IMG/VR virus record: IMGVR_UViG_3300043411_000844 | Location: 1-63,975 of that record | Reading direction: 5' to 3' (one strand) | Source of the DNA: a virus | DNA: 63,975 nucleotides | In this document: one piece after another, positions 1 to 63,975 of the stretch | Numbering within the stretch: the first letter of the stretch is position 1 | Layout: each line of letters begins with the position of its first letter | Translations under genes and position numbers: made by a program | The notes under the pieces: generated by a model | The model's input: the letters and a program-made list of their open reading frames with translations, nothing else | Database searches by the model: none | Told to the model about the DNA's origin: nothing

Positions 1-789
1 AGTCAAGACGCTTCACCCCCCCAGTCAAGCCCGTTGACCCCCCCAGTCAAGCCCGTTGACCCCCCCAGTCAATTCGTCTTGACCCCCCCAGTCATTGAGC
101 AAAGACCCCCCCAGTCCCGCGATGCGGCGGCCAATAAAATCAAGGCTTTAGCTGAAGCGGCCGACCACAAAACTGTGCCCTCGCGCGCGCCAGAAATAGA
201 TAGAGATATAGAAAAAGAGAGAGACACGAAAAAATCGAACCGCCCGAAAAAGACCTCGGAAACGAACAAAATTCTGGCAGCTAGGCCGTACACGCCAGAC
301 TTTCAGGAGTTCTGGGCTGGATACCCGGATACCGAGACCTTCATGTCGAAGAAGGATGCTTGGGTTGCATGGCAAAGACTAACTATCGAGCAGCAGCAGC
401 AGGCGACTTCGGTCCTGCCCATGTGGCGGTCGGTTGTGGCTGATCGCAAACGCCGGTCGTCGGACTACGTTTGCTTGCATGCGCAAGGCTTCCTGAACCA
501 GCGTCGGTTTGAAGCGCTGGCCGAGATCAAGGCCAAGTCCCAACAACACCGGTACTGGTGGCAGGACAAACAGAAGCTGGCCAGCATGACCCCCGAGGAA
601 TGGGAAGCCTTGGTTCGCGAGCATGCGAATGGGATCTGGCCAGTCGAGCACCTCGGATACCCGCCAGCAAGTGGCAACCGGGTGATCCCCGACCCGGTCA
701 TCGAGAAGATGAACCTGAAGCGGTTCTACGACATCACGGGCGATCCAATACCGGGGATGTCTCCGCCGTGGATGAGAGGCTCCCACTGA
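1..789 (+). CDS. Replication initiator, C-terminal part (gene spans the contig ends; N-terminal part at 63374-63975)
   Basis: This is the 3' part of a 447-residue replication protein that starts at 63374; the frame is continuous through the 47-base terminal overlap. The first ~40 residues here form a Pro/Ser/Gln-rich linker produced by the DNA iterons. A charged Lys/Arg/Glu linker follows, then a folded C-terminal domain beginning near YTPDFQEFWAGYP and running through KKDAWVAWQRL, a pattern typical of the C-terminal domain of phage replisome organisers. The N-terminal half resembles the DUF1376 (YdaU-like) family. Together the order is N-domain, iteron-coded linker, C-domain, as in lambda O. 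It probably binds its own gene and loads the DnaB encoded just upstream. The family role is inferred from pattern and context; no catalytic residue is expected. Confidence 0.75.
   Translation, partial: SQDASPPQSSPLTPPVKPVDPPSQFVLTPPVIEQRPPQSRDAAANKIKALAEAADHKTVPSRAPEIDRDIEKERDTKKSNRPKKTSETNKILAARPYTPDFQEFWAGYPDTETFMSKKDAWVAWQRLTIEQQQQATSVLPMWRSVVADRKRRSSDYVCLHAQGFLNQRRFEALAEIKAKSQQHRYWWQDKQKLASMTPEEWEALVREHANGIWPVEHLGYPPASGNRVIPDPVIEKMNLKRFYDITGDPIPGMSPPWMRGSH
16..116. repeat. Origin iterons, copies 2-6 of C7-AGTC repeats
   Basis: Direct repeats of CCCCCCCAGTC begin at 16, 38, 60, 83 and 106, with copy 1 at 63922 across the junction. Spacing is 22, 22, 22, 23 and 23 bp, close to two helical turns, so all copies face the same side of the helix. 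Copies 1-4 share CAAG or CAA after the core, and the spacer of copies 2 and 3 is identical (AAGCCCGTTGA). Because 22 is not a multiple of three, successive copies are read in different frames (DPPSQ, SPPQS, LTPPV), so selection acts on the DNA and not on the peptide. An A-rich stretch lies just downstream. This is the arrangement of a lambda-type origin inside an initiator gene. Confidence 0.75.
192..273. other. A-rich purine tract next to iterons, candidate DNA-unwinding element
   Basis: In a GC-rich genome this stretch is strikingly A-rich on the + strand, with AGATATAGAAAAAGAGAGAG and further runs of five to six A. It lies about 75 bp downstream of the last iteron and inside the initiator gene, where it codes a charged linker (Lys, Arg, Glu, Asp). 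In lambda an A/T-rich region next to the iterons is where strands first open. The role here is inferred from position and composition. Confidence 0.5.
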
Positions 790-950
790 TGGCCCTGATC
801 AACCGCGGCTACAGCTTCACCAAGGACGGCAAGATCAAGAAATCTGCTCCGAAGTCGAACGTCTCCAAACGGAGAAAGATCGCGCGATCGACGAAGAAGC
901 GGTTCGCTTCGCGCGCCAAGGCCGCAGCTACACGGGGGTTCAAGCCATGA
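789..950 (+). CDS. Small basic protein, unknown function
   Basis: The 53-residue product starts at an ATG that overlaps the stop of the initiator gene (TGATG), so it is probably translationally coupled. It is very basic, with clusters such as SKRRKIARSTKKRF, and has no acidic patch. A nucleic-acid-binding role is possible. The next gene starts four bases before its stop. I do not recognise a family; the tight overlaps on both sides are the main reason to call it real. Confidence 0.6.
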   Translation: MALINRGYSFTKDGKIKKSAPKSNVSKRRKIARSTKKRFASRAKAAATRGFKP

Positions 951-30770: not shown

Positions 30771-33700
30771 ATGGCAGGCTTGACGTTTGACGATCTCCCG
30801 ACTGTTGGACAGTCGGGGGCCGGAGGCTTGTCGTTCGATGATCTGCCGGATGCGAAGGCATCTGCGCAGCCTCAGCAAAGCGCGGGGCTGACGTTCGACG
30901 ACTTGCCGGATGCTAAGGAGGACAAGCTTGGGGCCATGGGCTCCTCATGGGGAATGATGACCCCTGAGGAGCAGAAAGCGTGGAGCGCGGAGCGAGAGAC
31001 GAAGCTTGCGGACTTTGCGCGCGTGCAAGACACGACCGCGACTGGTCTTCGCCAGGAAGCGGCCTCGCCGAAAGCCGATAACTCTGATCCGCTGTTCAAC
31101 TATTTTTCGCAGGCACTCGACACAGCTCGCGTCAAGGACGCGGATCAGTTTGAACAAGGCGCACAGAAAAGCCGCGACGAGCTGAGATCCATCCAGAAGG
31201 GCACGGCTGATCCCGTTCGCAAAACGGCGACACGCTCTGCGGTTGAAAATCTCGTTCGCGGTGTCGGCGCTGATGTGGGCGCGGGGTTGGTCGAGACCAT
31301 TGGCATCGCGGCTGGGTACGCCACGCGCGCGGTCTCTGGCGACAAGATCGACCCTGCCGACAACGCTCTCTACAAGGTCGGACAATCGATCCGCGAGTAT
31401 GTCGAGAAAAGGTTCCCCGGCGACGAGCGGCGGCAGGACGAGCTAGCGCAGCAACTTGCCCGGGGTGCTGGACAGGTTGCCGCTCTCTATGGGCCGAACG
31501 CAGCGCTGCGTATTGTCGGTGCCGGCACGAAGACGATGGTCGGTGTTTCGACGGCCACTGGTGCGGGCATGGAAGGCTCGTCGCTGTTCAATGAAGCGAC
31601 AGCCGCCATGAGGGAGCAGGAAAAGAAAGCCTCCTCCAAGCGACAGACGGCAGCACGTGGTCCGGTTGACCCGATTACCGAGCAGGACCGCTTCATCAAC
31701 TTCATGGGTGGCATCGGGCTCGGTGCGACTGAAGCCATACCGCTCGCCACCGACTTCGCCGGCAGTATGCGTGGATGGCGTCGAGTGCTCGCGAAGGGCG
31801 CCGAGCAGGGGCTTGAGGAGGGCGCTCAGGAAGCTGGGCAGACGATGGGCGAGAACATCCTGGCCCAGAACACGTTCGACCCCGAGCGCCGGACTATGGA
31901 AGGTGTTGGCAATGCCATCGCCGTTGGTGGCATCCTCGGCATATTGGGTGGGGCTGGTAGCGAAGCCATCACGGAGATGGTGCGACCCAAGTCTGAGTTC
32001 GAGGAAGCCCTTGATCTCGACACCCCCGCAGGAGCCGCTCCCGAGGCCGCTGGCGGCCTTCCCACTCCCGAAGGTCTCGTTCCCGCTCAAGATGCCCCCC
32101 CGCCTCCACCGGCCCCCGTAAGCTCTCCTGAGCCACAGAGCGGATATGAGCGGCTGCATGGGGAGACTGGCGCATCTGCAAGTCGGCCTACACCAAAGGT
32201 AGGTGACTTCGTTCAATGGACGTCTGGCGGTGCGGATCAGTTCAAGTCTCCGCAGCGGGTTGTGTGGGTCTCCGACGATGGAAGCTACGTTCGCGTCGAA
32301 GGTAGCATGACGGGCTTGCCCGCCGGAGAGACGACCGTTGTTGGCCCAGTCCCGCCATCGACTGCTACGTCGACCGTCCTCGAGGAACTCACTCAGCGCG
32401 AAGGTGGCAAGAAGTCTCCCCTCGGCAAGGCGGACGTGAAGGCCGAGGATGCGGCATCCTTCTACGGGAAGGGGGCCACGCCCTATCCTAAGACCGGCGA
32501 TGGGTATGGCGACAGCCCGGCGCCATCGGCAACTTCTACCGTGCTTGACGAGATTTCCAAGCGCGAAGGCGGCAAGAAGTCTCCCCTCGGTAAGGGTCTC
32601 TCTGAGATCACGGCTGGGCAAAAGGGTGGACAGGCGGCTGTCGATCGCGTGGCGGGAACCGTTGCGGCGGTCCCCGTTGGCGAGCCCGTCAAGATCACCA
32701 CGCCGGATTCCTCCGCCGAGATCGAGGCCCGTCCCGTCCTGGTCGAACTCGACACGCTGAAGCCAGCCTCGGGCAAGCTCCAGCCCCGCGACCGCGGCCG
32801 TGTCGAGATGGTGCAGGAGGCCAAGGAGCGCGCTGTCAGGCTCGATCCCGCGCGCCTGATGCCCGATCGCGTCTCCGACGCCGGCGCTCCCATTGTCACG
32901 GCCGACGGCACCGTCATCTCCGGCAACGGTCGAGTGCTCTCGATTGCCGAGGTCTACAACAGCCCTGCCCTGAAAGCCCAAGCCAACGCCTACAAGGCGG
33001 CGCTGCCGGCCGAAGCGCAAGGCATGAAGAAGCCCGTGCTGGTGATGCAGAGCCAGCTTTCCGGGCTTGATGCCGAGCGCTTCGCCCAGCAGTCGAACCG
33101 TCCCCGCATCGCGACCATGAGCGCGACCGAGCAGGCGAACACCGACGCCGCGGTCATGGGTGACATCCTCGATCTCTATCAGGGGGGCGACTTCGAGTCG
33201 GCTCCGAATGCGCCGTTCCTCAAAGCGTTTGCCACGAACGTAGTCGCTTCATCCGAGCGCAACTCCTTCTCCAAGGACGGGCAACTCTCGGCCGAGGGCA
33301 TGCGCCGCATGCAGGGGGCGATCCTTGCCCGCGCCTATGGCGAGACCGGTTTGCTCTCCCGCATGCTTGAGTCCACGGACGACAACGTCCGCGCGATCGT
33401 CGGCGCGCTCCAGGATGCGGCACCGCAGATGGCGGCGCTGCGCAAGGCGGTGCAGGCCGGCCAAGTCATGGAAGGGCTCGATCCGCTCCCCGACATCTCG
33501 GCCGCCGTGTCTCTGGTGTCCGACATGCGGAAGAAGCGGCTATCGCCGGCCAAGTTCTTCCGCCAGATGGACGCCTTCACCGAGGTCAACCCGGATGTGG
33601 CCGGCTGGGTGCTTTCGCTGTACAATCCGGCCGATCCGAAGACGGGAGCCGAAGCCGGCGAGCACGCGCTGTCGCGTCCGCAGATGGCCGCTGTCTTCAA

Positions 33701-36700
33701 AGCGTTCGCCAACGAGGCGATGCAGCACAAGACGGGAGGCTTCTTTGACGATGAAACTACCCGATCCGCAATCCTCTCTGCCGTCGGCCGCAACGCCGCC
33801 GGAGCCGTCGTGGGAGAAGCTCCAGGTAATGGCCCGAGCGATGGAAGCAGTGGGTCAGCAAACGGGCAAGCGCCGGTTGGTGGAAGGGGCCCGCAAGCTT
33901 CGCTCAGTGATGCGCAAGCGCCAGCTTCGTCAGGAACTGAGCAAGGCGAAGTAGAGCCGCGCGCACGCCGCGAAGCCTTCAAGCGCCTCAAGAGCGGGGC
34001 TGACTATGAAGTCCCGCTCGACACCATCTCGACCATCTACGAGGCGGTTGCCGATGACATCGGCATGGTGCCTGCCGACACGCATTTCGGCGTTGTCGAG
34101 CGAATCGAGAACTCGAGCGACCCGAAGGCAAAGGTCGGCGAGGAAGTCGTCAAGGTCTACATCCGCTTGGCGAATGGCAAGCTCGGCACGCGCAAATACC
34201 TCCGCAACTTCATCACGAAGGCCGGCGCGTTCTACGATCCCGATGTGAATGCTCTAGTCTTTGTCCGGCTCGGCCAAGTGCCGCGGCTCGGCCGCGAGGG
34301 GGCCGCCTTCGCTAAGAGCCTCCGGGGTGAGCTGCGGCACGAGCTTCTTCATCTGCTCCGCCGTAAGGGCGTTCTCACCGGGGCCCAATGGAACGATCTC
34401 GTCCGCCATGCTCGTCGTCTCCAGGTGTTGCGCTATGCGCAGTCTTCGTTCACGCAACTGACGGGCAAGCCGCTTCCGGCGAACCCCGAGCAACGCACGC
34501 TCGAGACACTCTACACGCTTCTATATAGGTCGAACGACAACACCGACAAGGAAATTGAGGAGAATCTCGATCAGGAGTTTGTCGCGCACGCGCTGGAGCT
34601 CGCCTACCACGGCAAGCTGAACGAGAAGGAAGCAGCCCCGCTCCAGGGTCTCATCGACAAAATGGAACTCCGCATGTACGGGCGGGGGGCCACGGCAGCG
34701 CCGGTCAATGGGCGGCCGTCGGCTTCTCTGTCCCCCAACTCCCGTCCTCCTCTGGACATGAGCCCAGAGGCAAGGAAAGCAAGAGCAGAGGAGATGGGGT
34801 TTGATACGAGCTTTGTTGCGTATCGCGGGATGAAGGGTGAATACTCCGACAGCGTTGCTGGCTCACTTGACTACCAATTCTTTGCCCGCGATCCTTCAGT
34901 GGCCAGCGAATATGCTGAAAACGGCGTCGTTGTTCCGGTTTGGCTTCGCTTGGGGAGAGGCTTGACTATCAATGCCAGAGGACAGCCGTTCTACGGAATA
35001 GATCCTCGCAGTCTGCCACTTGATATCCACCGGACGGCCAGAGAAATCGCCGACGAGATCGCCAAGAAAAGCAGAAGTCAACCAACCATTGATGCAGAGG
35101 TTCTGGCGCGGGCCGCCAAAGCCTCTGGCTACGAATCTCTGACGATCAGGAATGTCATCGACAATTTTGATCTGAACAATGAGAAACGCTCGACAATTCA
35201 TGTCGTCTTCTCCCCCTCCAACATCCGCTCCACCTCTGCTGCTTTTGATCCGAAAGAAGGAACCAGCACGAAGCTGTTGGCTTCACTAGCTCCCTCAAGC
35301 GCTCCTTCTCTCGACCCAGATGCAGCAGGGCCGCTGCGCAAGGCCCGCGACTCCGCTCTGGAGTTCCTCCAGGACGCGCAACTCCGCGTGCGCCGCCTAG
35401 TCGAGCGCGCCGACGAGCCGCTTCCCGACGACGCCGATCCCTACATGGCGATGACGCTCTACCACGGCCGCCTCGGAGGCCGGGCAGAGGCGGCAACTGA
35501 GAAGGCGAAGGTGATCCTCCAGGGGACCAACGCCATCGCCAAGGCAACGAACTCGCCGCTCGAGAACGTGAAGCGCCTGATCGATCTCTACCTCGTCGCC
35601 AAGCACGCGCCGGAGCGCAACGCCGTCCACGGCGACGGCTCGGCCGGCCTGACGAATGCGGAAGCGACGGCCGCGCTCGCGCGGGTCTCGGCACTTCCGC
35701 AAGGGGCCGACATCATCCGCGTCGCCGGCCTCGTCCAGGAGATGAATCGGCAGACGCTGCAGACGCTCCTCGATGGCAAGGTGATCTCTCAGGAGACCTT
35801 CGATCTCCTCTCGGCCACCTATGCGAACCATGTCCCGCTCAACCGCATCCTTCCCGAGGGTGACGAGGAGATCGGGGCGATCCTCGCCGGCGGCGGCTTT
35901 GATGTCCGCGGCACCGGCCTCAAGCGCGCGCAAGGCTCCAAGCTCCCAATCGCGCCAATCCTTGAGAACGTCCTGCTCAATCATGAGCAGGCGATCGTGC
36001 GCGCCGAGAAGAACACGGTCGATCTCGCGACCCTCGCCTTCGTTCGCCGCTTCGAGGACGATCTCAAAGGGCAGATCACGATCCTCGGCGGCAAGAAGCC
36101 GGCGCGCACCATCGACGCGGCCGAGCGCGGCATTCGCGATCAGATCACGGCGCTGAAGAAGATGCTGCCGAAAGACGACCGGCCGCATCACATGGATCGC
36201 ATGCCCGCGACGTCGATCAACGATCCGCGCGTGCTCGAGCTTCGCGAGGACGGGGAACGAGTCTTGATCCGCTTCCGTGATCCAAAGCTCGCGGCCGCTT
36301 TCAAGGCGACGAACTCCGAGAAGATGCCGCGCGTGCTCTACCCGCTCATGGTCTACACGCGGGTCATGTCGCAGTTGGCGACGCGCTTCAATCCCGAGTT
36401 CACCGCACCGAACAAGATCCGCGACATCCAGGAGACGGCCATCTACATCGCCGCTCAAAAGGAGCTCGGGGCCAAGGGTGCCGCGAAGTTCCTGCTGCGC
36501 GAGATGAAGGGCGAGAACTACAAGGCCATTCTCGATTGGATGATGGGGCGCGATACACCTGGCGCGCGTCTCTATCAGGAGATGATCGACGAGGGCGGCA
36601 CCACGGGGGGCCTTGCGCTCTCATCGCGCGATCGCGTCAAGGAGAGTATCGCTGAGATCGAGAAGCTCGTCACGGCAAGCCCCGCGAACCTTCGCAAGCT

Positions 36701-38126
36701 TCTGAAGTCCACTGCCAATGCCTTCGATCATCTGAACAAGGTGTTCGAGGACTCGACCCGCCTCTCGGCCTACCGCTCCGCCAAGGGGCGCGGGCTCACG
36801 AAGAAGCGGGCCGCCGTCCACGCCAAAGAGGCGAGCATCAACTTCAATCGCATGGGCACGGCAGGCCCCGTCATCAACGGGCTCTGGATGTTCTCGAACG
36901 CCTCGATCCAGGGCACGACGAAGATGGTTCGGGCGATGAAGAACCCGAAGGTCGCCGGCGTCGTCGTTCTCAGCATGGCGGCGGCCGTCACCGCGCTCGG
37001 TGAATGGAATGATCAGTGGGACGAGAAGTGGCGCGAGAAGGTGACGAAGTGGGACCGTCTCAACTCCCTCGTCGTCGTCCTGCCGAGCACGACGGCCAAT
37101 CAGTTCAACTATGTCGTGATCCCGGTGTCGTGGGGCCTGAAGCCGATCCTGAACCTCGCGAACTACGCCTACGATGCAGAGCAGGGGATCGAGTGGGCGT
37201 GGGGAGACTTCCTGCGCGACATGACGACGGCGACGCTTGAGGCCGCCAATCCGGTCGGCGGCACGACGCTGACACAGGCACTGGTGCCGACGGCGCTCGA
37301 TCTTCCCGTGGACATCGCCTCGAACACCTCCTGGTCAGGCTCCAAGATCAAGCCGGACCCGCAGCGGGGCGTGCCCGAAGACGTGCGCTACTTCTCCTCG
37401 CTCAAGGACAAGACGTCGGGGCAAGTCTCGATCGCCGCGACCGAGGCGCTTGTCGATAGCACGGGGATCGCAGTCTCTCCGGCCGATGTCAACTACGCCT
37501 TCGAGCAGACGGTCGGCGGCGTCGGCCGCTCGGCTGGCCGCGTGCTGACGACGGCTCAGGCCGTGATTGAGGGCAAGGTTCCCGACAAAGATCAGTTCCC
37601 CTTCCTTGCCCGCTTTTACCGCCGGCGCGAGGGCGAGGAGATCGGCGCGGGGCAAAGCCTCGGCACCGAGACCCGCGAAGTCCGACGCATCGTCGATCAG
37701 CAGGGCCGCGAGCGCGTGCGGCGGAAGTATCAGATCGAAGGCATCTTCGAGGAGATCAAGAAGCTTCCGAAGGACGAGATCAAGCAGCGCATCGCGGCGG
37801 AAGTGAAGAAGGATCCGGCCGTTTTTGACATCTTCAAGGGCCTCATCGAATCCGAGGCCAAGGGTCTCACCGGTCTCGACAAGCAGATCACTCTGCTCGG
37901 TGTCGAGAACGGCGAGCGCGCCCGCTACTACTTCGACCGACTGAAAGAGGCCAGCCCTGACGAACGCCGTTCGATTGTCGAGGACGGCGTCAAGAAGGGC
38001 CTCATCTCGCGTGGCGTGATCGAGCAGATCGGCGTGCTCAATCAGCTCGAGCGCTTATCACCTGATCAGCGCAGACAAGTCCGCACTCTCGCCAGCGAGA
38101 ACGGGCTCCGACTGCCTCCCGAATAG
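30771..38126 (+). CDS. Giant polyvalent virion protein: ParB-like nuclease, zincin, ADP-ribosyltransferase and LPD38 domains
   Basis: A 2451-residue protein. Residues 1-50 repeat GLTFDDLPDAK three times. Residues ~636-795 match the DdrB-type ParB-like nuclease domain (ISGNGRVLSIAEVY, MSATEQANTDAAV). Near residue 1187, GELRHELLHLLRRKG holds a HExxH zinc-peptidase motif. Residues ~1340-1495 look like an ADP-ribosyltransferase (FVAYRGMKGEYSD, DYQFFARDPSVASEYAEN, VVFSPSNIRST). Residues ~1540-2110 fit the LPD38 domain (NFNRMGTAGPVINGLWMFSN). Polyvalent proteins are packaged and injected to act on the host early. Each domain call is by motif; activity is inferred. It probably also serves as a channel or core protein. 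Confidence 0.8.
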   Translation: MAGLTFDDLPTVGQSGAGGLSFDDLPDAKASAQPQQSAGLTFDDLPDAKEDKLGAMGSSWGMMTPEEQKAWSAERETKLADFARVQDTTATGLRQEAASPKADNSDPLFNYFSQALDTARVKDADQFEQGAQKSRDELRSIQKGTADPVRKTATRSAVENLVRGVGADVGAGLVETIGIAAGYATRAVSGDKIDPADNALYKVGQSIREYVEKRFPGDERRQDELAQQLARGAGQVAALYGPNAALRIVGAGTKTMVGVSTATGAGMEGSSLFNEATAAMREQEKKASSKRQTAARGPVDPITEQDRFINFMGGIGLGATEAIPLATDFAGSMRGWRRVLAKGAEQGLEEGAQEAGQTMGENILAQNTFDPERRTMEGVGNAIAVGGILGILGGAGSEAITEMVRPKSEFEEALDLDTPAGAAPEAAGGLPTPEGLVPAQDAPPPPPAPVSSPEPQSGYERLHGETGASASRPTPKVGDFVQWTSGGADQFKSPQRVVWVSDDGSYVRVEGSMTGLPAGETTVVGPVPPSTATSTVLEELTQREGGKKSPLGKADVKAEDAASFYGKGATPYPKTGDGYGDSPAPSATSTVLDEISKREGGKKSPLGKGLSEITAGQKGGQAAVDRVAGTVAAVPVGEPVKITTPDSSAEIEARPVLVELDTLKPASGKLQPRDRGRVEMVQEAKERAVRLDPARLMPDRVSDAGAPIVTADGTVISGNGRVLSIAEVYNSPALKAQANAYKAALPAEAQGMKKPVLVMQSQLSGLDAERFAQQSNRPRIATMSATEQANTDAAVMGDILDLYQGGDFESAPNAPFLKAFATNVVASSERNSFSKDGQLSAEGMRRMQGAILARAYGETGLLSRMLESTDDNVRAIVGALQDAAPQMAALRKAVQAGQVMEGLDPLPDISAAVSLVSDMRKKRLSPAKFFRQMDAFTEVNPDVAGWVLSLYNPADPKTGAEAGEHALSRPQMAAVFKAFANEAMQHKTGGFFDDETTRSAILSAVGRNAAGAVVGEAPGNGPSDGSSGSANGQAPVGGRGPQASLSDAQAPASSGTEQGEVEPRARREAFKRLKSGADYEVPLDTISTIYEAVADDIGMVPADTHFGVVERIENSSDPKAKVGEEVVKVYIRLANGKLGTRKYLRNFITKAGAFYDPDVNALVFVRLGQVPRLGREGAAFAKSLRGELRHELLHLLRRKGVLTGAQWNDLVRHARRLQVLRYAQSSFTQLTGKPLPANPEQRTLETLYTLLYRSNDNTDKEIEENLDQEFVAHALELAYHGKLNEKEAAPLQGLIDKMELRMYGRGATAAPVNGRPSASLSPNSRPPLDMSPEARKARAEEMGFDTSFVAYRGMKGEYSDSVAGSLDYQFFARDPSVASEYAENGVVVPVWLRLGRGLTINARGQPFYGIDPRSLPLDIHRTAREIADEIAKKSRSQPTIDAEVLARAAKASGYESLTIRNVIDNFDLNNEKRSTIHVVFSPSNIRSTSAAFDPKEGTSTKLLASLAPSSAPSLDPDAAGPLRKARDSALEFLQDAQLRVRRLVERADEPLPDDADPYMAMTLYHGRLGGRAEAATEKAKVILQGTNAIAKATNSPLENVKRLIDLYLVAKHAPERNAVHGDGSAGLTNAEATAALARVSALPQGADIIRVAGLVQEMNRQTLQTLLDGKVISQETFDLLSATYANHVPLNRILPEGDEEIGAILAGGGFDVRGTGLKRAQGSKLPIAPILENVLLNHEQAIVRAEKNTVDLATLAFVRRFEDDLKGQITILGGKKPARTIDAAERGIRDQITALKKMLPKDDRPHHMDRMPATSINDPRVLELREDGERVLIRFRDPKLAAAFKATNSEKMPRVLYPLMVYTRVMSQLATRFNPEFTAPNKIRDIQETAIYIAAQKELGAKGAAKFLLREMKGENYKAILDWMMGRDTPGARLYQEMIDEGGTTGGLALSSRDRVKESIAEIEKLVTASPANLRKLLKSTANAFDHLNKVFEDSTRLSAYRSAKGRGLTKKRAAVHAKEASINFNRMGTAGPVINGLWMFSNASIQGTTKMVRAMKNPKVAGVVVLSMAAAVTALGEWNDQWDEKWREKVTKWDRLNSLVVVLPSTTANQFNYVVIPVSWGLKPILNLANYAYDAEQGIEWAWGDFLRDMTTATLEAANPVGGTTLTQALVPTALDLPVDIASNTSWSGSKIKPDPQRGVPEDVRYFSSLKDKTSGQVSIAATEALVDSTGIAVSPADVNYAFEQTVGGVGRSAGRVLTTAQAVIEGKVPDKDQFPFLARFYRRREGEEIGAGQSLGTETREVRRIVDQQGRERVRRKYQIEGIFEEIKKLPKDEIKQRIAAEVKKDPAVFDIFKGLIESEAKGLTGLDKQITLLGVENGERARYYFDRLKEASPDERRSIVEDGVKKGLISRGVIEQIGVLNQLERLSPDQRRQVRTLASENGLRLPPE
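33751..33954 (+). CDS. Possible 67-residue protein embedded in the polyvalent gene
   Basis: In the frame shifted from the giant gene, ATG 33751 opens a 67-codon ORF that reads as one charged helix (SWEKLQVMARAMEAVGQQ, then RLVEGARKLRSVMRKRQLRQ). In the same DNA the giant protein is a Gly/Ser/Pro low-complexity linker (GNGPSDGSSGSANGQAPVGG). That contrast suggests the second frame could be the constrained one. GGGAGG lies 12 bases before the ATG. Unproven. Confidence 0.3.
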   Translation: MKLPDPQSSLPSAATPPEPSWEKLQVMARAMEAVGQQTGKRRLVEGARKLRSVMRKRQLRQELSKAK

Positions 38127-49569: not shown

Positions 49570-50709
49570 TTAAGATTGACGACTTTGTGGGCGGTTCGCT
49601 ATCGCCTTGAAATCACTCACTGTTTCTGGAATTTCCAAGTTTCGGTTAACAGTTTCCACTCCCCGAACAGTCCCCACGGCCGCGTGCAGATCGTCGACCC
49701 GGAGGAAAGCGTAAGTCGATTCGGTGATGACGGTTGACGAGTGTCCGAGCCAGGCGGAAACCGCGTGCATCGGCAACTTGTGCTGCTGCAACAGTCGGCA
49801 CCCGCACGTCCGCCTGAGATCATGCCAGCTCGCCGTCTCGATCCCGGCCAGCTCGATCAGCCGGCGCATCTGCATCTTCATGTGGTGGTAGCGCGCGCCG
49901 CTCTTGGTGTGCAGGACGTAGGGGCTGGCGTAGTGGCGGCGGAGACCGCGGAGCACCTTCTCGGCGCGCGGCAGGATCGGCACTCGCCGCTCGTGGCCGC
50001 TCTTGGCACGATCGGCCTTGATGGTGATCTCCTTGCGGATCAGATCGACATCCGACCACGGCAGCCCCATGAGCTCGCTCGAGCGCAGGCCCGTGTCGAT
50101 CGCCAGGATCAGCGCCGCGAGCAGCATGTCGCGCGCCGGGTATTGGGCCGGGTCCAGATTGCGCGCCGTCTCGAGCAGCCGCTTCTCCTCCTCGACCGAC
50201 AGATAGCGGGTCTTGGGATCCGACCGCGTCAGGCCCTTCTTCTTGCGGGACTGCAGGTAGGGGCGGACGGGATTGTTCTCGACCCACTCGGCCTCGATCG
50301 CTGAGCCGAAGACAGCACTCAAGACGTGGAGCTCGGCGATGATCGTGCTCGGCTTCATGCCTGCCTGCCGGCGCGCGTGCTCGTAGGCACTGAGGTCCGC
50401 GCGGGAAATGTCGGAGAGGAGCCGACCCTGGAAGTGCGGCGTCAGGGTCAGCAGGTGGCGGGCGTAGGCGCGGACTGAGTTCGGCCGGAGGAGAGGGAGG
50501 TGCTCGGCTCCCATCTTGCGGACGGCTTCGTCATAGGTGTGCTGGATCTCCTTCCACTTGTCGCCGCCGTTCTCGCCTAGCCAGGTGCGATACCGCCCTT
50601 CAGCCACTGCCTTATCTCGAGTGCCAAGGGACTGGACGACGTCCCGGCCGCCGCGGCGGTCGCGGACCTTGTAGAGCCCCGTGTTGGCGTCTTTGACGAG
50701 CGTCGGCAT
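49570..50709 (-). CDS. int: Tyrosine integrase
   Basis: A 379-residue site-specific recombinase that inserts the phage into the chromosome and helps excise it. The N-terminal ~60 residues are an arm-binding-like domain, then a SAM-like core-binding part (PNSVRAYARHLLTLTPHF). The catalytic part has Arg near 208 (DTGLRSSELMGL), HDLRR near 294 (WHDLRRTCG), GHSS near 318 and Tyr near 332 (TESTYAFL). All key residues are present. CCGAGGAGAGACGCC precedes the start. It overlaps the excisionase-like gene by 133 bases. Confidence 0.95.
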   Translation of the reverse strand: MPTLVKDANTGLYKVRDRRGGRDVVQSLGTRDKAVAEGRYRTWLGENGGDKWKEIQHTYDEAVRKMGAEHLPLLRPNSVRAYARHLLTLTPHFQGRLLSDISRADLSAYEHARRQAGMKPSTIIAELHVLSAVFGSAIEAEWVENNPVRPYLQSRKKKGLTRSDPKTRYLSVEEEKRLLETARNLDPAQYPARDMLLAALILAIDTGLRSSELMGLPWSDVDLIRKEITIKADRAKSGHERRVPILPRAEKVLRGLRRHYASPYVLHTKSGARYHHMKMQMRRLIELAGIETASWHDLRRTCGCRLLQQHKLPMHAVSAWLGHSSTVITESTYAFLRVDDLHAAVGTVRGVETVNRNLEIPETVSDFKAIANRPQSRQS

Positions 50710-51675: not shown

Positions 51676-52593
51676 CTAATGCGTGAGAGCTTTGTAAGTC
51701 AGGCGCTTGCCTGCAACGCCGTCAATGAAGCTATCAAGCCTCTGTAGCGTGTGGCGCTTTACGTCGCCTTCGTTCAGGCGGAAGGAAAATTCGTCGACGT
51801 AGCGGCCTAGATGCTTCTTGCTGGTATGGTGATAGACGCCAATGATCCCGCGCTTCATGACCGCAAAGACGCTCTCGACGCCGTTCGTGGTCACGTTGTC
51901 GCGGACGTATTCGCCGTCGCTGTGGTTGACGGTTTCGTGGTCGAAAAACAGGCCGTTAAGGCCGCGATAGACAGCCGCTTCGTCAGTGTGGAGCGTCGAG
52001 CCGACTTCCACATTCTGATAAATTTTAGTGTGGAGCGTCGCCATATCCGCGTCTTCGATCGGCATAGCCTTCATGCGTCCGCCGCGCTCACGCATTGCGA
52101 CAACAGCAGTTTTTCCTACTACGCCGCGTCCCGCTTTGAGCTTTTTATGCTCATGCTTGTTAGCTTCTTTTCCGCCAACATAGGTTTCGTCAATTTCGAC
52201 AATGCCTTGGAGCTTTTCGATATCGCTCCCACAAGCCTCTCTGAGGCGGTGCAGCACAAACCATGCGGACTTTTGCGTGGTCCCGATTTCCTTCGCGAGT
52301 TGCATTGACGAAATGCCCTTGCGCGCCGTGACGAGCAAATACATCGCGTAGACCCACTTGTGCAGCGGAACATGGCTGCGCTCGAAAATCGTTCCGGTGC
52401 GGACAGTGAAGTCTTCCTTGCACTGGTTGCAGCGGTAGAAGCCGCCCTTACGGGTAGTGATCCGCTCGCCAAGGCCGCAGACAGGACATCTCGGACCATT
52501 CGGCCAAAGCCGCCCCTCCAAATATGCGCGGGCGGCCTCTTGGTCGGGAAACATAGCAAAAAGCTCAAACGTCGAAATGGTGGATTTACTCAT
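51676..52593 (-). CDS. IS1595-family transposase (ISXO2-like DDE)
   Basis: A 305-residue transposase. N-terminal zinc ribbon (CPVCGLGE ... RCNQCKEDF) for DNA binding; HTH-like helix (SSMQLAKEIGTTQKSAWFVL); catalytic DDE/N core: EIDETYVGGKEAN, STLHTDEAAVYRG, and TTNGVESVFAVMKRGIIGVYHH. RYVDEFSFRLNEGD is the usual C-terminal block. All catalytic residues are present, so it may be active. Start ATG 52593 with GGTGGAGA upstream; a longer frame to 52803 exists. Confidence 0.95.
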   Translation of the reverse strand: MSKSTISTFELFAMFPDQEAARAYLEGRLWPNGPRCPVCGLGERITTRKGGFYRCNQCKEDFTVRTGTIFERSHVPLHKWVYAMYLLVTARKGISSMQLAKEIGTTQKSAWFVLHRLREACGSDIEKLQGIVEIDETYVGGKEANKHEHKKLKAGRGVVGKTAVVAMRERGGRMKAMPIEDADMATLHTKIYQNVEVGSTLHTDEAAVYRGLNGLFFDHETVNHSDGEYVRDNVTTNGVESVFAVMKRGIIGVYHHTSKKHLGRYVDEFSFRLNEGDVKRHTLQRLDSFIDGVAGKRLTYKALTH

Positions 52594-52609
52594 GATTCTA
52601 TGTCTCCAC

Positions 52610-52828
52610 CTAAAGAGAAATCGCGGGATTACATGTGGCGCAAAACCAAACGCCACCGAGAAAAACCGGCTTATCGCCAACGGGATAGCCGCAATCGGCG
52701 CATTGCCTGTTGTCCCATTGGTCCAGCGCCGCCGAATATGCGTCAGCTCCAGGTCTGCCATCGCAATCCTGTGGGCATACGGGCCAATTGCAGAGATGGC
52801 CACCTCGATGGCACGGGATAGTGCTCAT
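52610..52828 (-). CDS. IS cargo: Cys-rich zinc-finger protein
   Basis: A 72-residue protein with many Cys (NWPVCPQDCDGRPG, QCADCGYPVGDKP, FCATCNPAISL) that could hold one or two zinc ions. It lies next to the transposase in the same direction. No family recognised. Confidence 0.55.
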   Translation of the reverse strand: MSTIPCHRGGHLCNWPVCPQDCDGRPGADAYSAALDQWDNRQCADCGYPVGDKPVFLGGVWFCATCNPAISL

Positions 52829-58761: not shown

Positions 58762-59361
58762 CGATCGCTCCGCTCCATAGAGTTAGCCCGAGAGCAGGGT
58801 GCGCTCAAAGGTGACGTCGAGATCGACGGCGCTTACTTCGGCGGCTACGTCAAGCCAGCAAACAAAGCTGAGGACCGGAAAGACCGCCGCAAAGCAGCGA
58901 ACCAGTCGGGCAAGCGTCAGTCGGTGATTGTCGTGCGCGAGCGGAATGGCCGGACGGTGGCTCAAGCCGTGAAGCGCGAAGCCGATGGCGTTGCGGTTGC
59001 TCGCCAGACCATTGCCACGGGCGCCACCGTGCACGCTGACGAAGCCTCACATTGGGATCAACTCGCCGCGAACTTCCCGATAAAGCGGGTCAACCATCAA
59101 ATCGCGTACACGGGCCCAGAGGGGGCTTCGACAAATCAAGCAGAGGCATTCTTTAGTCGCCTCCGCAGATCCGAGATTGGCATTCATCACCATATCGCCG
59201 GCAAGTACCTCCAAGCCTACGCTACGGAGAGTGCTTGGCGCGAGGATATGCGTCGCCAGTCGAACGGTATTCAGTTTGCCGTGCTCCTAAGCGCAGGTGC
59301 GACCGCACCGAAATCGCAAGCATGGGCTGGCTACTGGCAGCGCTCGAAGCTCCGCACCTAG
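58762..59361 (+). pseudogene. IS1595-type transposase remnant (5' truncated)
   Basis: The frame open from 58762 codes EIDGAYFGGYVKPANKAEDRKD, VHADEASHWDQLAANF and TNQAEAFFSRLRRSEIGIHHHI, which are the three catalytic blocks of ISXO2-like DDE transposases. The zinc ribbon and start are gone, with stops at 58750 and 58759. It is a different element from the intact one at 51676. It lies between the two repressor halves. No clear inverted repeats remain. Confidence 0.85.
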
Positions 59362-61531: not shown

Positions 61532-61572
61532 TTGATCTTGGTGGCGTGACGATCTCCCGGCAAGGAGATCGG

Positions 61573-63108
61573 ATGTGTGAACGAAGGACTGGTCAGGTCG
61601 ATCTGCTCACTCGAACGCTCGGGTGGAGCGAAACATCAAGCCTCTCTGAAAGGCCCGATATGTACGCGCAAGATACCGGATTTGCACCGCCTGTCAACAG
61701 GCTCGGCGGCAGCGTCCCACACAATCTCCACGCCGAGCAGGCCCTCCTGGGGGCGATCCTCAACAACAATGAGGCGCTCGAGAAGGTCTCGGACTTTCTC
61801 AAGCCCGAGCATTTTTTCGAGCGGCTCCATGGTGTGATCTTCGACTCGATCGAGGCATATGTCCGGCAAGGGCGGACGGCCTCTCAAGTCACGATCGCTA
61901 CGGATTTCGAGGACTACCCGCCGGTCGAGGATGGCTTCGGCAAACCCTACTCCATCCCGCAATACCTTGGACACCTTGTCTACCAGCGCTGCATTGATTC
62001 ATCCGTTCGCGACTACGGCCAGACGGTATTCGATCTGTCGTTGCGTCGGCAGATGATGGACATCGCCGATGCGCTGAGCAGCGCTGCGCAGGAAGCGACG
62101 GCCGATACGCAACCGGCGAAGATCCTCGATCATATAGAGGCGCGCCTGTTCGCGCTGCGCCAATCGTCATCCAGCGTCTCTATCGATCTCGATATGGCGA
62201 CGGTTATTGACCAAGTGCTGGCTGCGGCCAAAGCGGCGGCAGAGTCCAATAGCAAGCTCGCGGGGTTGTCCACGGGCTTGCAAGACCTGGACAGCATGTT
62301 GGGGGGGCTTGCCCCCTCGGACCTGATCATCGTTGCCGGTCGCCCCGGAATGGGCAAGACGGCGATCGCCGCGAACATCGCGTTTTCGGTCGCTCGTTCC
62401 GGTGTGCATGTCGGAATCTTCTCAATGGAGATGAGTGCATCGCAGATCGGGATGCGTGTGCTTGGCGAGAAGGCCGGCGTTCAAAGCAACCGCATTCGCG
62501 TCGGCAGCGTCGAGCCCTCGGAGTGGCCGAAGATCGTCGAGGCGGCAGAAGGCTTGCGTGGGCAGCCGGTGCATATCGACCAGACCGGTGGACTGTCCGT
62601 CTCCCAATTGGGACTGCGAGCTCGGCGCATGCACCGCAGGCACAAGCTCGGGCTGATCGTCATCGACTACCTGCAACTGATGGCCGGCTCCGGCAACAAG
62701 GGGAACAGCCGCACAAACGATCTCACCGAGATCACGATGGGCATCAAAGCCCTGGCCAAGGAACTCGACATCCCGATCGTTGCGCTCTCGCAGCTCTCCC
62801 GTCAGGTCGAGCAACGCGACGACAAGCGGCCCATGCTGTCGGATCTCAGAGAGTCGGGTTCGATCGAGCAGGACGCCGACGTCGTGATGTTCGTGTTCCG
62901 TGAGGACTACTACCTCGAACGAGAGGAGCCTCCCTTCACGGAATATGACCGTCATGCCGATTGGGTCAATCGGATGAAGAATGTCCAAGGGATTGCCGAG
63001 GTGATCATCGGAAAGGCCCGGCACGGCCCGACCGGTAGGGTCAAGCTGGCATTCTCGAAAGAGTTCACGCGGTTTAGCGATCTCGCAAAGGGAGGGCAGG
63101 CGCAATGA
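61573..63108 (+). CDS. dnaB: Replicative DNA helicase DnaB
   Basis: A 511-residue hexameric helicase that unwinds DNA ahead of the fork. The N-terminal part (NLHAEQALLGAILNNNEALE) is the DnaB-N domain. Walker A AGRPGMGKTAIAA is near residue 255, Walker B LIVIDYLQLM near 362, and the family blocks SQLSRQVEQRDDKRPMLSDLRESG and ARHGPTGRVKL follow. ATG 61573 has AAGGAG five bases upstream; 61660 is an alternative. The initiator encoded 3' of it should load it at the iteron origin. Confidence 0.95.
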   Translation: MCERRTGQVDLLTRTLGWSETSSLSERPDMYAQDTGFAPPVNRLGGSVPHNLHAEQALLGAILNNNEALEKVSDFLKPEHFFERLHGVIFDSIEAYVRQGRTASQVTIATDFEDYPPVEDGFGKPYSIPQYLGHLVYQRCIDSSVRDYGQTVFDLSLRRQMMDIADALSSAAQEATADTQPAKILDHIEARLFALRQSSSSVSIDLDMATVIDQVLAAAKAAAESNSKLAGLSTGLQDLDSMLGGLAPSDLIIVAGRPGMGKTAIAANIAFSVARSGVHVGIFSMEMSASQIGMRVLGEKAGVQSNRIRVGSVEPSEWPKIVEAAEGLRGQPVHIDQTGGLSVSQLGLRARRMHRRHKLGLIVIDYLQLMAGSGNKGNSRTNDLTEITMGIKALAKELDIPIVALSQLSRQVEQRDDKRPMLSDLRESGSIEQDADVVMFVFREDYYLEREEPPFTEYDRHADWVNRMKNVQGIAEVIIGKARHGPTGRVKLAFSKEFTRFSDLAKGGQAQ

Positions 63109-63371
63109 TCGAGAACACCGAGGTCAATCTAGCGGCGCGCTTCTTCCTCGAGAGCGGCCTCGCTGTCGCCGAGGAGCAGGCCGAGCAGATGGCCGACATC
63201 CTCTATGCGCCGGAGCTTTCGGCAGATGCCGTGCTGTGCCTGCTCTGGCTCGGCGTGAAGAAGGGCGCGAGCTTCGACGTCGTCGCCCTGACGGACACCG
63301 AGATCAGCGAGGCGTGCGACGAGCTCGGCCACGTTCACCTGCTGTTCATGCCTTGCGCAGGGGAGGCATAG
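63105..63371 (+). CDS. Hypothetical 88-residue protein
   Basis: ATGA overlap with dnaB. Helical and acidic (ARFFLESGLAVAEEQAEQMADIL, then FDVVALTDTEISEACDEL). Being translated between helicase and initiator, it may help replication. No domain known. Confidence 0.6.
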   Translation: MIENTEVNLAARFFLESGLAVAEEQAEQMADILYAPELSADAVLCLLWLGVKKGASFDVVALTDTEISEACDELGHVHLLFMPCAGEA

Positions 63372-63373
63372 CC

Positions 63374-63975
63374 ATGCGTGAACCTATCGAGCGCTGGGTC
63401 GCCAAGCCGTTCATGAAGTTCTACCCCTCCGACCCGGTGGACTGGTGGAAGGGCTGCGTTGCCGGCCCTGACGACCGCCCCCGCACGTCTCGGCGGCTGT
63501 CCTACCTCACCCTCGACGAGGAGGGGCTGTATCATCGCATATGCAACTGGATGTACCTGACAGGTTACGACTTGCCCGGCGACAACATGGAAGCCGCCAA
63601 GGAGTTGCATGTCAACCACAACCAGTATGCGGTGGTGCTCGAGCGGCTGATCTACAAGGGCGCGCTCATCCGCTACCAAGGCACCGTGATCAGCAACCGG
63701 GTGCTGAAGGAACGGATCGCCTTCATCGACAAGAAGCAGCCCAAGACCAGCGCCAAGGCCGTGGCGGCTCGCGAACGCGAGACGAAGGCTCGCATCGTGA
63801 GGGATAGCCCGATCGGGGATACGCTCAGGGGTCTGCGCAAGGGGTTGGGAGCCCCGGAATTTGCCGATGTCATTGCACAGATCGAAGTCGTTTTGTCCGA
63901 GTACAAATCAAGGGAAAATGACCCCCCCAGTCAAGACGCTTCACCCCCCCAGTCAAGCCCGTTGACCCCCCCAGT
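63374..63975 (+). CDS. Replication initiator, N-terminal part (continues at base 1)
   Basis: ATG 63374, two bases after the previous stop. The first ~115 residues (FYPSDPVDWWKGCV, SYLTLDEEGLYHRICNWMYLTG, LVNHNQYAVVLERLIYKGALI-like) match the DUF1376 (YdaU) pattern of phage replication proteins. It continues into the iteron-coded linker and the C-terminal half at 1-789, giving 447 residues. The split at this point is an assembly cut, not a gene break. Confidence 0.8.
   Translation, partial: MREPIERWVAKPFMKFYPSDPVDWWKGCVAGPDDRPRTSRRLSYLTLDEEGLYHRICNWMYLTGYDLPGDNMEAAKELHVNHNQYAVVLERLIYKGALIRYQGTVISNRVLKERIAFIDKKQPKTSAKAVAARERETKARIVRDSPIGDTLRGLRKGLGAPEFADVIAQIEVVLSEYKSRENDPPSQDASPPQSSPLTPP
63929..63975 (+). 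repeat. Terminal 47-bp overlap, identical to bases 1-47
   Basis: Bases 63929-63975 equal bases 1-47 exactly. Joining the ends keeps the initiator reading frame and adds iteron copy 1 (63922) to copies 2-6. This is the signature of a circular assembly whose graph broke at the repeats, not of a biological terminal repeat. Confidence 0.9.

Follow-up and report, generated by a model that had tools for sequence, protein, structure and literature searches.

A putative lambda-type replication origin of C-run-centred dyads inside the initiator gene of a predicted temperate phage

As described in the accessible text of two studies (PMC5043065, PMC7466680), oriLambda consists of iterons in the middle of gene O, each an inverted repeat engaged by dimers, with an A/T-rich tract after them; a primer table in the second study gives a lambda-type iteron, ATCCCTCAAAACGAGGGA, with arms TCCCTC/GAGGGA around an A-rich centre. 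In the available descriptions, Stx-phage origins share this layout, those of P27 and 933W with six iterons, and plasmid iteron origins of the P1, F and RK2 type also place arrayed initiator sites next to a tract rich in A+T. Here we analyse IMG/VR record IMGVR_UViG_3300043411_000844, 63,975 bases of viral DNA (the window, meaning the whole stretch), in which six repeats followed by an A-rich tract lie in the middle of a gene for a replication initiator, close to a gene for a DnaB-type helicase. Judging from the sequence, this array is very probably a lambda-type replication origin of a temperate phage. An initial annotation of the stretch had ascribed to it the logic of lambda O with different repeats and, as far as the published excerpts allow comparison, we find the same: the layout is that of oriLambda and the Stx-phage origins, whereas the arms are GAC/GTC around C7, the initiator has no Phage_rep_O match and DnaB is phage-coded. 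Unlike the plasmid origins, the window has dyads inside the gene.

Six dyads and an easily melted tract within one gene

The two ends of the record share 47 identical bases that lie inside the iteron array. Closure at this overlap gives a circle of 63,928 bp with the reading frame kept, on which the initiator gene runs through the junction (63374–63928 joined to 1–789; 1344 nt, 447 aa). Because the overlap falls within the array, the linear record holds seven repeat copies, the duplicate being removed by closure; and since the contig broke inside the repeats, the assembly may have misjudged the copy number.

On the closed circle, CCCCCCCAGTC occurs six times, with spacings of 22, 22, 22, 23 and 23 bp, at 0.41–0.50 of the 447-codon gene, and the exact 11-mer has no further occurrence in the record. 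The copies stand in codon phases 2, 0, 1, 2, 1 and 0, that is, in all three phases of the gene; the core is identical in all six, while four different spacers are found among the five (two are alike). Synonymous shuffling that fixed both protein and codon usage (2000 trials) yielded C7AGTC 0.23 times on average and three times at most, compared with six times in the real gene.

Each repeat is a hyphenated dyad, GAC–C-run–GTC, the best copies reading TTGAC-CCCCCCA-GTCAA. GAC stands to the left of the C-run in five of the six copies, with arms of 5 bp in two, 4 bp in two and 3 bp in one. The repeats thus have the inverted-repeat form of lambda-type iterons (~17–20 bp), although as dyads they are weaker than those of lambda. 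The first element of the array is a left arm and the last a right arm, which makes the C-run the middle of the unit; read from the sequence, there are six run-centred units against five spacer-centred ones. A run-centred dyad scanner (C-runs of at least 4 with inverted arms of at least 4, in arrays), applied to both strands of the circle, returned a single array, which is this one (three of the six copies taken).

The tract downstream of the repeats is 54% A, 63% A+T and 74% purine, each value being reached in fewer than 1 in 10,000 windows of equal length. By nearest-neighbour energy, the circle's least stable windows of 40, 60 and 82 bp all fall within it, and at the 100-bp scale the best window at the tract lies at the 99.89th percentile of instability. 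It looks as an unwinding element should, and supplies the A/T-rich tract of a lambda-type origin. Much of the initial annotation is borne out here: its six repeats at 63922, 16, 38, 60, 83 and 106 are all placed correctly on the circle, their spacing is 22–23 bp, the use of all three codon phases and the shuffles agree with its argument that such spacing rules out peptide selection, the A-rich purine stretch does follow, and the array does lie inside a gene whose 447-aa product matches replication-initiation and primosomal families.

We read the locus as a lambda-type origin because repeats in all codon phases are followed by an easily melted A-rich tract near dnaB. Several initiator molecules, probably as dimers with one arm per subunit, would bind the six dyads, whose C-run centres would recur every two helical turns; the bound array would wrap or bend the DNA and melt the A-rich tract downstream, where the phage's own DnaB helicase would be loaded. 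Specificity probably resides in the arms, given that these vary from one phage to another. The C-run probably fixes how the half-sites are placed relative to each other and, whatever the frame, codes for Pro or Gly that a flexible linker would tolerate.

The runs might instead act through single-strand structure, with hairpins looped by C- or G-runs or G-quadruplexes (G4s) opening or marking the origin. The array folds as a single strand better than 200 of 200 shuffles (z −4.8), its G strand fits the canonical G4 pattern and a 25-nt G4Hunter window reaches 1.84, so the earlier suggestion that the runs could fold as G-quadruplexes holds as far as pattern goes. However, the arms span only 3–5 bp, and repeated dyads will lower the folding energy whatever the reason for their presence, as expected of any dyad set. 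Runs in other arrays are only 2–5 long, with C- or G-runs on either coding strand. We consider a single-strand mechanism unlikely, and G4 formation unlikely as a shared function because arrays elsewhere carry the shorter runs.

Arrays in other phage initiator genes

Because selection by motif was to be avoided, initiators were sampled by protein family. For phrog_270 the sample covered the two phyla to which a Clostridium locus and an Oceanimonas locus belong, with 398 genomes each; for phrog_9327 it covered 385 genomes from the class that includes a Rhodobacterales locus. The resulting 155 loci comprise the 75 best-scoring and 80 hand-picked from the rest of the lists, several coming from one genome. 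A phase-free array detector (an exact 6-mer at least three times, 19–27 bp apart, spacings not all multiples of three) found arrays in 42 of the 155 loci, compared with 3.2 in shuffles. The arrays favour the central ORF (open reading frame; 35 of 151 loci, 145 kb) over the flanks (10 of 151, 299 kb), and 40 of the 42 lie inside an ORF of at least 150 aa. The commonest spacings are 22 and 23 bp. Inverted arms of at least 5 bp number 100 in 39 arrays, compared with 19.6 in shuffles, and the A content is higher downstream than upstream of the array in 30 of 40 cases (Wilcoxon p 2.6e-4, one array counted twice). That duplicate, L281 (the same array as L276), is left out of the 39-array statistics and kept in the 42 of 155 and in the A-content counts; L301 and L397, whose array lies outside an ORF of at least 150 aa, are left out of the A-content statistics; and L273, L278 and L345 are retained though doubtful-looking. 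A C-terminal FW.YP motif was considered as a possible common domain and abandoned (6 of 39, compared with 2.4 when shuffled).

Cultured phages were represented by 11 replication genes, hand-picked from two sets of phage records retrieved by protein (224 and 158). The detector reports a mid-gene array in six: the Pseudomonas phages LESphi3, phi2, MD8 and PotUPM1, and Parlo (repeat GGGTCGG) and SopranoGao (GCAAAA). Like the window, the four Pseudomonas phages carry phase-free CCCCCGCA arrays 21–23 bp apart in mid-gene; unlike it, they have interrupted runs (CCCCACCCCC) and, by eye, short arms (TGC/GCA), and the run-centred dyad scanner finds none in them even with 3-bp arms. Phages mEp460, Ayreon and ST64B resemble the window in having runs in the linker, here two of G5 or G6 with, by eye, CACTA/TAGTG-like arms; they differ in that the two runs are 66 bp apart and neither detector finds a linker array. 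In these three (L421, L422, L431) the G-run between the arms is, by eye, about 2 or about 5 long, a frame-keeping step of three. Itty13 has C4–C5 runs 17 bp apart and D77 a short dyad set; in neither of these, nor in mEp460, Ayreon and ST64B, does the array detector report a linker array.

Searches of viral DNA by motif gave CCCCCAGTC twice at 8–18 bp in 26 stretches and CCCCAGTC three times in 20, against 40 for the reversed motif CTGACCCC three times; spacings are multiples of three, as in protein repeats, in 12 of the 20 and 23 of the 40. As the reversed motif is the more frequent, motif counts alone were rejected as evidence. Inspected by eye and by ORF, the CCCCCAGTC and CCCCAGTC stretches comprise in-frame protein repeats or other chance matches, a few unassigned stretches (the related L011, L023 and L030, and L052) and arrays in replication genes (L010, L018, L022 and L024, which form one family, and L015, L016, L017, L020, L026, L027, L031, L032, L051 and L054). 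With L018 standing for its family, nine of 11 array proteins match replication-initiation PHROGs (L026 only weakly, E 0.003), the two without a match being L015 and L031. A left GAC is present in 27 of 34 copies in 12 initiator arrays (window included) versus 1 of 68 in 19 non-initiator loci. This count omits near-copies of L018 (L010, L022, L024), rows on the same contig as, or near-copies of, rows already used (L012, L014, L021), and L052 with L011, L023 and L030, which have GAC–C-run–AGTC repeats but in no recognised initiator ORF.

Two motifs intended as controls, CTGACCCC and CCCCATGC, also match initiator arrays (L056, L069 and L094; L315, L319 and L322), all six of whose proteins match replication PHROGs, and so cannot serve as clean negative controls. 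With CCCCATGC, 6 of 9 initiator copies have the complementary GCA, versus 6 of 65 elsewhere. Arms vary among the C-run arrays, as the differing dyads of L094 (CTGAC-C7-GTCAG), L315 (GTGCAT-C7-ATGCAC) and L319 (GTGCA-C8A-TGCAC) indicate. Nine viral contigs, all found via C-run motif searches (L015, L020, L032, L051, L054, L094, L315, L319 and L322), are like the window in having C-run-centred dyads 21–23 bp apart inside ORFs, with replication-initiation PHROG matches in all except L015; they are unlike it in their arms, for example GCGACT/AGTCGC, CAGACT/AGTCTG and GTGCAT/ATGCAC.

Four viral stretches contain the exact iteron TTGACCCCCCCAGTCAA; in three it lies within unrelated coding genes of a single kind, and the fourth is L434. 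In the last ~70 bases of that contig, as oriented, an exact TTGACCCCCCCAGTCAA stands beside a second, similar C-run copy, C8TAGTC, in AT-rich DNA, as if the array broke that assembly too. A motif scan of the genome collection was, by eye, dominated by cyanobacterial short tandem repeats along with further chromosomal ones, some of these loci serving only as entry points to genomes. In the open-access literature, a weak basis because most subscription papers fall outside it, we found no description of C-run-centred dyad iterons; the accessible parts of PMC2647930 and PMC8044961 hold nothing on the subject.

These comparisons bear on a further account, in which the array is an internal operator through which the initiator or another phage regulator controls gene expression, with no origin involved. 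Tandem dyads are also typical of operators, and a small protein with a DnaA-type helix-turn-helix is coded downstream. An operator would not, however, be expected in mid-gene, alongside an extreme melting tract and in an order found again in other initiators, and we hold this account to be quite improbable.

The initiator family and the place of the C-run

The initiator matches phrog_9327 (primosomal protein; E 3.8e-11, best stretch residues 255–356) and phrog_270 (replication initiation; E 1.9e-4), the latter being unspecific at such a level, since at E 0.001 it also fires in 10 of the 14 genomes used as controls. Close relatives were found in neither phage records nor viral contigs, and a protein search of 385 alphaproteobacterial genomes returned one weak homologue, L417 (= L406).

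Several results weigh against the proposed origin. First, the sole Pfam match of the initiator is DUF1376 (E 0.045; 14.6 bits, under the cut-off of 30.1), and the same scan gave no match to Phage_rep_O (PF04492, the lambda O family). Membership of the lambda O family is not supported, and the likeness to the lambda origin would be one of mode of working. A winged-helix fold is not supported either, because the AlphaFold model of the N-terminal 185 residues is useless (mean pLDDT 39). Second, the phase-free detector finds an array in none of 14 alphaproteobacterial DUF1376 genes. Homologues mostly lack the array, which by the rule of the initial annotation itself counts against its proposal. 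Third, 113 of the 155 protein-drawn loci have no array by the detector. Seven viral loci of DnaB relatives (L034–L040) gave nothing, though no DUF1376-like gene was seen there either. Finally, the linear GC-skew profile has no sharp switch near the record ends, and C-run-centred dyads prove no commoner than A-run-centred ones (see below).

Seen by eye, L417 has three in-frame C6 repeats at 12-bp intervals, the DUF1376 genes L415 and L418 have other short repeats ~10–13 bp apart, L412 has in-frame 24-bp repeats, and the other 10 of the 14 have no repeats. The linker repeats of L415 and L418 are GTAACGC and CGTNACG-like and lie about one helical turn apart, versus two turns in the window. The linkers of L415, L419 and L420 carry a C-run closely followed by a G-run, for example CCCCCC-TTTC-GGGGGG, possibly a different origin element. 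Iterons vary between related phages of lambda's group.

Direct repeats of ~22 bp adjoining a replication gene, in a record with overlapping ends, would also suit an iteron-plasmid type origin, or a copy-control or partition locus, of a plasmid prophage instead of a lytic origin. Yet an integrase and head genes are present and the Pfam scan of the initiator gave no Rep_3 or RepA_N match, the mark of iteron-plasmid initiators, which makes a plasmid prophage very improbable.

How special the C-run is can be judged from the 39 protein-drawn arrays, which contain 26 C/G runs of at least 5 (on the coding strand, 20 of C and 6 of G). Same-locus windows give a mean of 4.4 (highest 11 of 200) and composition shuffles a mean of 12.9 (highest 24 of 500), enrichments of about sixfold and twofold, subject to the dependence between copies of the same array. 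For A/T runs, these arrays show no excess over same-locus windows. Counted by array, 13 of 39 have a C/G run of at least 5, a number within the range of shuffles (mean 9.9, highest 17 of 200), and runs of at least 6 are in no excess over shuffles. Across the 155 loci, run-centred dyad arrays with C4 and 4-bp arms number 3 (shuffles: mean 1.5, highest 6 of 10), with 8 for A/T runs; with C3 and 5-bp arms they number 9 (mean 0.6, highest 2 of 10), again with 9 for A/T runs. Neither the 11 cultured-phage genes nor the 14 DUF1376 genes gave an array with the run-centred dyad scanner.

The C-run therefore has no proven special role, C-run-centred dyads being no commoner in the protein-drawn loci than A-run-centred ones. 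The C/G-run as a general rule was partly rejected, with array counts within shuffles and C/G centres no commoner than A/T centres. Together with the A-rich centre of lambda's iteron, these counts indicate that what is general is the dyad array, and that the C-run is one of the forms in which its centre recurs.

That the repeats are a Pro-rich flexible linker grown by slippage, with no function at the DNA level, would suit a gene with 19 CCC codons and a Pro-rich linker, C-runs that read as Pro in every frame and the surplus of C over G on the coding strand of the sampled arrays, but this is scarcely credible when 22- and 23-bp steps shift the frame at each copy, an unchanged core goes with differing peptides, and reshuffling the codons of the protein does not recreate the array.

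Of the interpretation first given to this stretch, a lambda-type origin inside the initiator gene stands. The repeat proves to be a dyad, most homologues lack the array, and the C-run core is not the peculiarity it was taken for, C-run repeats, with the same string or with other arms, being found in unrelated initiator genes of other viruses as well.

Gene neighbourhood and significance

Coordinates are collected in Table 1. The initiator had been placed next to dnaB; the helicase gene is indeed upstream and near, but one 88-aa ORF intervenes. Downstream, a short ORF overlaps the end of the initiator gene and is followed by the 147-aa protein with a DnaA-type helix-turn-helix domain and then by a DNA methyltransferase. 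In a check for a P-type helicase loader, the downstream genes scanned (part of the ORFs) were the DnaA-domain protein and the methyltransferase; the phage has its own DnaB. The DnaA-domain protein matches only the C-terminal, box-binding domain of DnaA (Bac_DnaA_C, E 2e-14), and might act at the proposed origin.

By their sequence, the integrase and the head genes (terminase large subunit, head-tail adaptor and major head protein) mark a temperate phage. An IS1595-type transposase lies near the integrase, and a further ORF looks, by eye from its translation, like a similar transposase fragment. A 2451-aa ORF strongly matches large phage proteins whose function is unknown and, less strongly, a virion RNA polymerase family (phrog_2206, E 1.3e-6, residues 106–409).

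Table 1. Positions of the array, the initiator gene and other features of the window
Feature	Position	Strand	Remarks
Iteron 1	63920..63932	+	GAC-CCCCCCA-GTC; arms TGAC/GTCA read from sequence
Iteron 2	14..26	+	CACCCCCCCAGTC; only copy without left GAC; same bases as 63942–63954
Iteron 3	34..50	+	TTGAC-CCCCCCA-GTCAA, 5-bp arms
Iteron 4	56..72	+	TTGAC-CCCCCCA-GTCAA, 5-bp arms
Iteron 5	79..94	+	arms TGAC/GTCA
Iteron 6	104..116	+	GAC-CCCCCCA-GTC
A-rich, purine-rich tract	192..273	+	proposed unwinding element; least stable 40-, 60- and 82-bp windows of circle
End overlap, 47 bp	63929..63975	none	same as 1–47; contig end within iteron array
Initiator gene, 5′ part	63374..63975	+	N-terminal domain weakly DUF1376-like, first repeats; continues at 1–789
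Initiator gene, 3′ part	1..789	+	remaining repeats, A-rich linker, C-terminal primosomal-protein-like part
DnaB-type replicative helicase	61546..63108	+	DnaB_C E 2.7e-98; phrog_19 E 3.1e-107
88-aa ORF between dnaB and initiator	63105..63371	+	no family match
Short ORF	558..950		overlaps end of initiator gene
147-aa protein, DnaA-type helix-turn-helix	947..1390		
2451-aa ORF	30771..38126		
Integrase	49570..50709		
IS1595-type transposase	51676..52803		
Transposase-like fragment	58924..59361		by eye

A tentative and rather doubtful extension of the lambda-type reading is that initiator-embedded origins across several bacterial phyla share one undescribed architecture, with dyads two turns apart, private arms and a kept homopolymer run, C/G in one large class; the run might then act as a structural signal common to all, its centre being rigid, bent or A-like, and the arms as the recognition code private to each phage.

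To our knowledge, most phage origins have never been mapped. If phase-free dyad arrays mark origins, these would be readable from sequence in many phages, cultured ones included. The natural series of initiator–site pairs with changing arms would help to show how initiators select their sites, and the window would offer a clean case of one DNA stretch serving both as origin and as coding sequence, with its repeats in all three frames.
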